Positions 54,805 to 56,029 of a DNA stretch of 64,000 nucleotides are shown here, piece after piece. A program made the translations under genes and the position numbers. The notes below the pieces were generated by a model, which made no database searches, was not told where the DNA came from, and worked only from the letters and a program-made list of their open reading frames with translations. This DNA comes from Enterococcus viikkiensis (GTDB taxonomy: Bacteria; Bacillota; Bacilli; Lactobacillales; Enterococcaceae): the NCBI RefSeq assembly GCF_005405345.1, contig NZ_BJDW01000012.1:27744-91743 (forward strand), in the 5' to 3' direction. Positions within the stretch are counted from its first letter, which is position 1. The number at the start of each line of letters is the position of its first letter.

Positions 54805-54832
54805 TTGACTCTGACTGAGAATCTATGATAGT
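54805..54832 (+). promoter_or_regulatory. candidate promoter of the cysteine synthase leader
   Basis: TTGACT (54805-54810), 16 bases, GATAGT (54827-54832). Start of transcription would be about 40 bases before the leader peptide. Confidence 0.5.
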
Positions 54833-54878
54833 TTTTTTAAAACATTGAAATTGTTCGATATTTTTTGGAGGGTTAGAC

Positions 54879-54965
54879 ATGACATTCAGCAAATTCGTTA
54901 CATTTGAAGCGTGCTGTTGTTGTATGGTGCTAAAAAGCAGCATACCATTTTGTCATGCCTGTTAA
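54879..54965 (+). CDS. cysteine-rich leader peptide of the cysteine synthase gene
   Basis: 28 codons from ATG 54879, six bases after GGAGGG. It starts MTFSKFVTFEACCCCMV: four consecutive Cys codons (TGC TGT TGT TGT, 54912-54923), then two more Cys near the end (FCHAC), stop TAA 54963-54965. Six Cys in 28 residues directly before a cysteine synthase gene, with hairpins and a terminator between, is the signature of a ribosome-mediated attenuator that senses charged tRNA-Cys. No sequence of this peptide is known to me. Confidence 0.8.
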   Translation: MTFSKFVTFEACCCCMVLKSSIPFCHAC

Positions 54966-55060
54966 CCGCCCAAACTTTGCTTATTGTTGATTGCCATAGC
55001 CTTCATGGGGGTTGTGGGTTCAAACTAAGGGAAAGGTGCTGATTAATAGTCAGCACCTTT
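54922..55060 (+). promoter_or_regulatory. attenuator: pause hairpin, antiterminator and terminator
   Basis: 1:2 hairpin: GTATGGTGCT (54922-54931) with AGCAGCATAC (54936-54945), one mismatch, starting at the last Cys codon. 3:4 terminator: AAAGGTGCTGA (55032-55042) with TCAGCACCTTT (55050-55060) and a T run. 2:3 antiterminator: CAGCA (54938-54942) and CC (54945-54946) with GGTGCTG (55035-55041), a TA bulge. A ribosome stalled on the Cys codons covers segment 1, frees segment 2 and favours 2:3 over 3:4, so low cysteine would switch the gene on. Confidence 0.75.
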
Positions 55061-55096
55061 TTTGTTTTCTCAAAATTGACTAAAGGAGTTCAGACA

Positions 55097-56029
55097 ATGA
55101 TTATTCATTCCATTCGAGCAGCCATCGGAAAGACACCGTTGCTAAAATTTACTCATCAAGAATTTAAGGAAATTCCTGAAACTTCAGCCATTTATGCTAA
55201 GCTGGAATATTTGAACCCAGGCGGGAGTATCAAAGACCGTTTAGGCAGCTATTTATTAGAAGAAGGCTTTTCCCAGCAAAAAATTACGAACAAGACCACC
55301 ATTATTGAGCCAACGGCTGGGAATACGGGAATTGGGCTGGCACTAGCCGCACTGGGAGCTGGACTTCAGACGATTTTTGTTGTACCAGAAAAATTTAGTT
55401 TAGAAAAACAAGCATTGATGCAAGCGTTAGGCGCTAAAATTATCCACACGCCAACGGAAGAGGGAATTCAAGGCGCGATTCGTAAGGCAAAAGAACTTCA
55501 TCAAGAAATGGTCGATAGTTATTTACCGCTGCAATTTGAAAATTCCGCCAATCCAGCCGCCTATTATCACTCTTTGGCGCCAGAGTTGGTTTTAGATTTA
55601 GGCCCGAAGATTACCAGTTTTGTCGCGGGAATCGGTAGCGGTGGTACCTTTAGCGGTGTGGCCTACTATTTATTGGAACAAAACTCCGCGATTCGTTTGA
55701 TTGGGGTGGAACCTGAAGGCTCGATCTTAAACGGTGGTCCCAGCCATAGCCATGAGGTGGAAGGCATCGGTGTCGAGTTCATCCCACCTTTTTTTGCCGA
55801 GTTGCCGATTACTGAATTTGCTACAATCAGCGACAATGCGGCTTTTGCAATGACTCGAAAACTAGCGAAACAACATGGCCTATTGGTGGGAAGTTCTTCG
55901 GGAGCAGCTATGGCAGCGGCCTTAGTGGAAATAGCCAAATTACCAATGGGTAGCCAAGTAGTCACGATATTTCCTGATGCAGGAGATCGCTATTTATCCC
56001 AAGCTATCTACTCACGAGAAGACTATTAA
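55097..56029 (+). CDS. cysteine synthase / cystathionine beta-synthase family
   Basis: 310 residues from ATG 55097, eight bases after AAAGGAG; an upstream in-frame start lies in the terminator tail. PLP Lys in NPGGSIKDR, substrate loop EPTAGNTGIGLA, PLP phosphate loop GIGSGGTFSG, and the late SSSGAA. The family includes CysK and MccA (O-acetylserine-dependent cystathionine beta-synthase); a nearby YrrT-like remnant and luxS favour an MccA-like role in turning homocysteine to cysteine. Controlled by the cysteine leader. Confidence 0.85.
   Translation: MIIHSIRAAIGKTPLLKFTHQEFKEIPETSAIYAKLEYLNPGGSIKDRLGSYLLEEGFSQQKITNKTTIIEPTAGNTGIGLALAALGAGLQTIFVVPEKFSLEKQALMQALGAKIIHTPTEEGIQGAIRKAKELHQEMVDSYLPLQFENSANPAAYYHSLAPELVLDLGPKITSFVAGIGSGGTFSGVAYYLLEQNSAIRLIGVEPEGSILNGGPSHSHEVEGIGVEFIPPFFAELPITEFATISDNAAFAMTRKLAKQHGLLVGSSSGAAMAAALVEIAKLPMGSQVVTIFPDAGDRYLSQAIYSREDY

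Follow-up and report, generated by a model that had tools for sequence, protein, structure and literature searches.

The region between positions 54805 and 55097 is a conserved mRNA leader that very probably works as a ribosome-mediated transcription attenuator, predicted from its sequence to turn on the downstream gene mccA when charged Cys-tRNA is scarce. Positions are those of the window, i.e., the whole stretch of 64,000 nucleotides of Enterococcus viikkiensis DNA that was analysed, and features lie on the plus strand unless stated otherwise.

Cysteine control in Firmicutes has been described mainly via CymR-type repressors and T-boxes, and we found no description of a Cys leader attenuator in Lactobacillales in the open-licence PMC literature (most subscription papers are outside that scope). 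The original prediction called a ribosome-mediated Cys attenuator unusual, which holds for the literature searched but not for the relatives examined, among which it is widespread (75/77): a Cys-codon attenuator would stand before nearly every examined mccA of two Lactobacillales families. The proposed trp/his-type scheme is supported in part, namely by the Cys leader, the covarying 1:2 hairpin and terminator, the conservation among orthologues and the behaviour of an L. paracasei operon, but its 2:3 pairing is not.

Leader ORF, hairpins and regulated gene in the window

A promoter-like site (TTGACT, 16 nt, GATAGT; 54805..54832) has 9/12 matches, which is weak taken alone (5 such sites were found, with 4.1 expected); TTGACA / TATGGTAAT-like blocks occur at the equivalent place in several orthologues. 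The Shine-Dalgarno sequence GGAGGG (54867..54872) lies 6 nt 5' of the ATG of a leader ORF of 28 codons (54879..54965, translation MTFSKFVTFEACCCCMVLKSSIPFCHAC and stop) and is also within a predicted helix that captures the leader's ribosome-binding site (RBS). Codons 12-15 are four consecutive Cys codons (54912..54923), the predicted stall site, and two more Cys codons are codons 25 and 28. The Shine-Dalgarno sequence, the ORF and all six Cys codons had been predicted and were located where expected.

Folding of the 231-nt leader is better than that of 200/200 dinucleotide shuffles (z -4.13). Hairpin 1:2 (54922..54945), supported by fold and covariation, begins in the last Cys codon as had been described. 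A helix supported by covariation covers the leader start codon with its 5' strand GACAUGACA (54876..54884), and the 3' strand of the RBS-capturing helix, UGUCAUGCC (54951..54959), is supported by covariation and folds. Next comes a strand that we call the switch strand, CUGUUAACCGCCC (54959..54971), identified from folds and pair counts; the leader stop codon is inside it, and two alternative states are predicted for it, pairing with the terminator's 5' arm and loop or being held by the RBS helix. A further hairpin between the switch strand and the terminator arm (54994..55017) is seen in the fold, and its sequence is not conserved among relatives. The strong terminator claimed 36 nt before the start codon of the gene is indeed present (55032..55060), with a 5' arm at 55032-55042, the loop UUAAUAG at 55043-55049 and a 3' arm at 55050-55060, followed by a T run. 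The segment GGTGCT, said to occur in both arm 1 and arm 3, is found at 54926-54931 and 55035-55040.

The regulated gene (55097..56029) encodes a protein of 310 aa of the MccA-type cystathionine beta-synthase / cysteine synthase family. It matches two PDB sequences best, 6ahi, named 'Cysteine synthase' (442 bits), and 5b1h, named 'Cystathionine beta-synthase' (406 bits), and 25 NCBIfam models among the matches listed, cysteine-synthase ones included, are all below cut-off. These PDB and NCBIfam comparisons correct the name cysteine synthase given earlier: the product appears to be of the MccA type, nearer cystathionine beta-synthase than CysK. Between mccA and luxS, positions 56036-56306 hold the decayed remnant of a SAM-dependent methyltransferase gene, which we take to be YrrT-like; an open methyltransferase copy (Pfam Methyltransf_25) occupies the equivalent place in E. 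devriesei (L001 3972-4628). On the minus strand, a 111-aa ORF without Pfam match at 1e-5 (54324-54659) is divergent from the attenuator.

Occurrence of the Cys leader among relatives

A search for the mccA protein across 105 Enterococcaceae genomes, the family of E. viikkiensis, gave a match at 1e-90 in 48. All 48 upstream regions were examined and one (L087, whose contig ends 88 nt upstream) was dropped, leaving 47. The second family is Lactobacillaceae, as shown by the L. casei ATCC 393 plasmid copy, which lies in one of its genomes at identical coordinates; 61 of its 251 genomes gave a match, and the best 30 of these 61 were examined. A leader was defined as an ORF of at most 60 codons that contains CC, is preceded by a Shine-Dalgarno sequence and lies within 500 nt upstream. 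Such a leader precedes mccA in 46/47 Enterococcaceae and 29/30 Lactobacillaceae, i.e., 75/77 with the window included and the best 30 of 61 Lactobacillaceae taken, as compared to 0/21 cysK-paralogue regions and 41/1540 shuffled regions; these counts are of related sequences, several of them near-identical, and not of independent events. One Lactobacillaceae locus (L157) has no CC leader within 500 nt upstream of mccA, and in L154, L155 and L160 the leader is more than 400 nt upstream.

The common RNA was aligned in 40 Enterococcaceae sequences. A leader ATG with a Shine-Dalgarno-like site is found in 40/40 of them and a Cys run abutting the hairpin in 39/40. Both Cys codons are used (TGT 176, TGC 43), and what the leaders share as coding sequence is a Cys run located at codons 10-15 (another ORF accounts for two further values, at codon 2). 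Short Cys-run ORFs and covarying stems upstream of the Enterococcus orthologues, proposed as a check of the prediction, were found, the ORFs in 46/47 Enterococcaceae and the covariation in hairpin 1:2 and the terminator. Orthologues that keep the terminator and lack the Cys run, named as evidence against it, amount to 1/40 aligned loci. At this locus (L014, genome G001), which is also the one exception among the 47 Enterococcaceae regions, the mccA leader has one Cys codon left (VCWT) and stops early, within the hairpin, with both hairpins kept; CCC is retained in that genome's mccB leader (L137).

The other 7 Enterococcaceae loci examined, all of one genus (g17), are outside the alignment. 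They have CC leaders before mccA with other hairpins and another terminator than the aligned 40, and this terminator (GGCGCGAAAAUC.. in L081, L085 and L089-L093) resembles that of L. paracasei, unlike other Enterococcaceae. Judging from the sequences, the g17 form may be either ancestral or transferred.

A covariance model of the core RNA matches 52/105 genomes of the family at E 0.1, with E values of 3.6e-7 or below in 48; genome G048 has the motif. Searched across the order, the model matches 37/395 genomes at 0.01. Two of 6 genomes outside the family (G416 and G424) have no Cys leader where looked for and were taken as chance.

Pairing of the terminator arm and a possible two-ribosome switch

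Covariation was assessed by segment swaps, 5000 per pair of segments, on the 40 aligned Enterococcaceae sequences. Hairpin 1:2, the terminator and the RBS helix each beat 5000/5000 swaps, and three control pairs were not significant. Hairpin 1:2 is paired in 99.7% of cells with 4 pairs changed on both sides, the terminator in 96.7% with 4 such pairs, and the RBS helix in 88.1% with 2, its outer two pairs being broken in 14/40 and 24/40. The original prediction, a classical 1:2 / 2:3 / 3:4 attenuator with arm 2 (54938-54946) pairing with 55035-55041, did not include this covarying helix, which joins the leader RBS to the switch strand.

We consider this classical scheme unlikely. The pairing is possible on paper, with 7 pairs and a 2-nt bulge, at -7.0 kcal/mol (-4.0 kcal/mol for shuffled partners), and it is notable in the stalled-ribosome folds of two relatives (L008 and L071); a pairing of arm 2 with the terminator arm is also predicted in Lactobacillaceae leaders. 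In most of the 40 sequences, however, it is near zero when the ribosome is stalled. It does not covary (3705/5000 swaps at least as good), no pair is changed on both sides among the 89.3% of cells that are paired, 500/500 shuffles score at least as high, and two pairs (94:218 and 95:217) are each broken in 13/40 sequences, breakage occurring where the terminator arm has changed. In L185 and L144 the hairpin arms have changed together; judged by eye, this has cost arm 2 its fit to the terminator arm but has left that of the switch strand intact. Lack of covariation of the 2:3 pairing had been named in advance as refuting evidence, and it does refute that detail, but only that detail. An antiterminator formed by arm 2 and excluded by hairpin 1:2 is not what we see in Enterococcaceae, and because this pairing is unsupported we file the element as a variant that works like the trp/his class, not as its strict 1:2 / 2:3 / 3:4 form.

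A predicted antiterminator between the switch strand (54959-54971) and the terminator 5' arm and loop (55035-55049) fits better than the arm 2 pairing. When folds were computed with the RNA upstream of the end of arm 1 removed and before the terminator 3' arm is made, 38/40 sequences have at least 11 expected antiterminator pairs. Among 23 representatives, 22 native sequences reach 11 pairs in stalled folds, as compared to 1.3% of shuffles; the energy of these folds has a mean z of -1.40, and that of the window (z -0.05) is no more stable than shuffles. The core of 7 pairs (54959-54965 with 55043-55049) is paired in 94.2% of cells and has 2 pairs changed on both sides (16/500 shuffles as high), the changes being those of L014 and L071, where both partners depart together. 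The swap test for the antiterminator is not significant (1240/5000 at least as good) because the core hardly varies. In L008 and L071 the antiterminator is not favoured in stalled folds. When the 3' arm is included, the terminator outcompetes the antiterminator at equilibrium in 40/40 stalled folds (in the window by 11.9 kcal/mol, -41.5 for the terminator and -29.6 for the forced antiterminator), and antitermination would therefore have to be kinetic.

The window was also folded under different ribosome occupancies. With no ribosome the RBS helix forms (17.3 pairs), and with a ribosome on the stop codon the switch strand is masked and the terminator is left. A single ribosome stalled on Cys does not displace the RBS helix (16.8 expected pairs versus 3.0 for the antiterminator), and when a second ribosome is placed on the leader RBS the antiterminator forms (11.7 pairs). 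One stalled ribosome alone thus leaves the switch strand occupied. Since the RBS helix stays in place in that case, antitermination would need something more, namely a second ribosome in the queue or steric hindrance from the one that has stalled. Among the relatives, folds of ribosome-free RNA ending before the 3' arm favour the RBS helix over the antiterminator in 28/40 and the antiterminator over the helix in 12/40.

The sequence itself shows the leader with its Cys run and the hairpins, how these are conserved and covary, and with what each strand is able to pair; from this we infer the following regulatory steps. With enough Cys-tRNA, the ribosome would reach the stop codon inside the switch strand and cover that strand, allowing the terminator to form, and after its release the leader's own ribosome site would pair with the switch-strand region and keep the switch shut. 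With little Cys-tRNA, the ribosome would stall at codons 12-15, where hairpin 1:2 could not form, while a following ribosome occupies the leader RBS and frees the switch strand. The free strand would then pair with the terminator 5' arm and loop (55035-55049), and RNA polymerase would read into mccA.

A two-ribosome switch of this kind is possible but doubtful in its full form: the leader RBS would be the anti-antiterminator strand, antitermination would depend on one ribosome stalled on the Cys codons plus a second queued on the RBS, the position of the run at codons 10-15 would set the spacing of the queue, and transsulfuration genes across Enterococcaceae and Lactobacillaceae would be under cysteine control chiefly through this element. 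The covarying helix at the leader RBS suggests, in that case, an attenuator that counts queued ribosomes and not one stalled ribosome.

For the mccA leaders of Lactobacillaceae, folding suggests a like design with a more classical antiterminator from arm 2 to arm 3. A terminator was found near 29/29 leaders, and in stalled folds part of its 5' arm pairs with the RNA immediately downstream of the ribosome (between 2.9 and 13.1 expected pairs, computed without shuffle control). In segment swaps, arm 1 with arm 2 reaches z -8.0, the RBS with downstream RNA z -6.0 and arm 2 with the terminator arm z -2.4; because a control pair, the RBS with the terminator arm, itself reaches z -2.9, only the first two stand out.

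Further targets and comparison with known systems

A second copy of the element lies in the same genome upstream of mccB, whose product scores above the cut-off of a cystathionine gamma-synthase model. CCC is present in the leaders of 15/15 mccB loci read, and the loop UUUAAUAG is kept in 14/15 of their terminators, with most of the stem differing from that of the mccA terminator. The switch pairing is the best stalled fold in 6/10 mccB leaders, the exceptions being L100 (the copy in the same genome), L101, L123 and L132. Genes of two further kinds have a Cys leader in front of them: some with the cystine-binding protein as top NCBIfam match, below cut-off (L138, L141 and L144; cystine-transporter-like), and one for a MetA-like acyltransferase (L140).

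Between the attenuator terminator and mccB, a second Cys mini-ORF with its own Shine-Dalgarno sequence was observed in 14/15 loci read (L100, in contig G000:C1 of the same genome, L101, L104, L097, L103, L109, L110, L123, L132 and L181-L185, but not L137). Its peptides are MCCCLKDKG, MCCRLTVNKS, MCCHCIAERR and similar, and its ATG precedes that of mccB by 55-60 nt in the 12 loci measured, although the position of its stop varies. It is possibly a second, translational layer of cysteine control; folds of 4 of these loci revealed no clear sequestering of the mccB ribosome site.

The mini-ORF also bears on a second explanation, in which the stalled Cys leader acts through translational coupling or Rho-type control, as proposed for mycobacterial polycysteine ORFs, and the terminator is a partial brake. 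Those ORFs are reportedly on leaderless mRNA and are cited as translation attenuators (Canestrari 2020), which together with a Cys mini-ORF just before mccB would favour this explanation. We nevertheless regard it as quite improbable, more so than the classical scheme, because a strong intrinsic terminator with a covarying stem stands between leader and gene in the window, and because in L. paracasei a high coverage of the 5'-UTR points to premature termination (PMC6004538). In that study, the cysK2-ctl1-cysE2 operon of L. paracasei FAM18149 was up by about 3 log2 in cysteine-deficient versus methionine-deficient medium, it has high 5'-UTR read coverage and a rho-independent terminator, and premature termination was proposed; the passages on this operon name no leader peptide and call the molecular mechanism 'yet to be discovered' (PMC6004538). 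On the FAM18149 plasmid we found a CCC leader (MMSQSMFNAINCCCRTTRFWRCSAC and stop) with a Shine-Dalgarno sequence between the promoter region and the terminator of this orthologous operon, and its stalled fold is predicted to contain a hairpin of -35.4 kcal/mol that takes up the terminator arm.

The leader peptide is highly improbable as a functional small protein in its own right (for thiol or metal handling, with incidental hairpins). Its Shine-Dalgarno sequence, ORF and Cys residues are conserved, and the E. faecalis leader (L148 2774-2911) is annotated as a 45-aa hypothetical protein (WP_002355203.1); but the N-terminal half is not conserved, the positions and covariation of the hairpins are tied to the Cys codons, and the frame 3' of the hairpin varies by lineage (CHAY and stop, FVMPIN.., FVMSINCPS and stop) while the RNA remains alike. 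Because of this shift of frame after the hairpin, we rejected the leader peptide as a conserved protein, and the part 3' of the hairpin seems to be kept as RNA. Direct sensing of cysteine or tRNA by a riboswitch or T-box, with the Cys ORF as a by-product, is equally hard to credit: tRNA sensing is used elsewhere in the genome (21 T-box matches, 10 over cut-off), but the Cys codons are conserved with synonymous changes among them, Rfam yields no family over its cut-off anywhere in the window (54780-55110 has one chance-level match, E 0.51), and the T-box covariance model never exceeds the gathering score in the window and finds nothing up to E 1 within 54780-55110.

The favoured reading, a ribosome-mediated Cys attenuator, shares with trp/his-type attenuators a short leader ORF with a ribosome site, a run of codons for the amino acid of the regulated pathway, hairpin 1:2 placed at these regulatory codons, an intrinsic terminator between leader ORF and gene, and a predicted alternative pairing. 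It differs in being cysteine-specific and in occurring in Lactobacillales, and in its Enterococcaceae form the predicted antiterminator is the strand after hairpin 1:2 and the competing strand is the leader's own RBS. In E. coli, the trpL RBS is reportedly paired with distal leader RNA, a report attributed to Das et al. in 1983.

Short polycysteine ORFs have been described upstream of cys genes in mycobacteria, in P. acnes and before cbs of B. longum (PMC1262725). They resemble the present element in having a Cys-run leader before cysteine genes, but the passages on them report no conserved terminator hairpin (PMC1262725), whereas the window has an intrinsic terminator and predicted switch helices. 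With its Shine-Dalgarno sequence and conserved terminator, the element does not belong to the mycobacterial type, which is reportedly leaderless and without a conserved terminator. Upstream of cysS in Rhodobacterales, uORFC-8-2 has two Cys codons at a hairpin and a second stem with a U run, and Cys attenuation has been proposed for it (PMC8632094). These features are shared, but uORFC-8-2 is alphaproteobacterial with cysS as target, and the element described here, in a window with no Rfam match over cut-off, precedes mccA and mccB and is thus not a member of that family. The his leader of bacilli (PMC2965389) and the leucine-rich attenuator peptide of S. aureus ilv (PMC5794164) are likewise ribosome-type leaders where a T-box might be expected, for different amino acids and genes.

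A further counterpart is the L. paracasei cysK2-ctl1-cysE2 leader with its terminator motif AAGGGCGCGAAA-N16-TTTCGCGCCCTT, which belongs to an orthologous, cysteine-repressed operon with proposed premature termination (PMC6004538). It has the CCC leader that we found, and its RNA sequence is unlike the Enterococcaceae form. A Cys attenuator would supply the mechanism that the account of this cysteine response, part of a cheese-flavour pathway, left open (PMC6004538).
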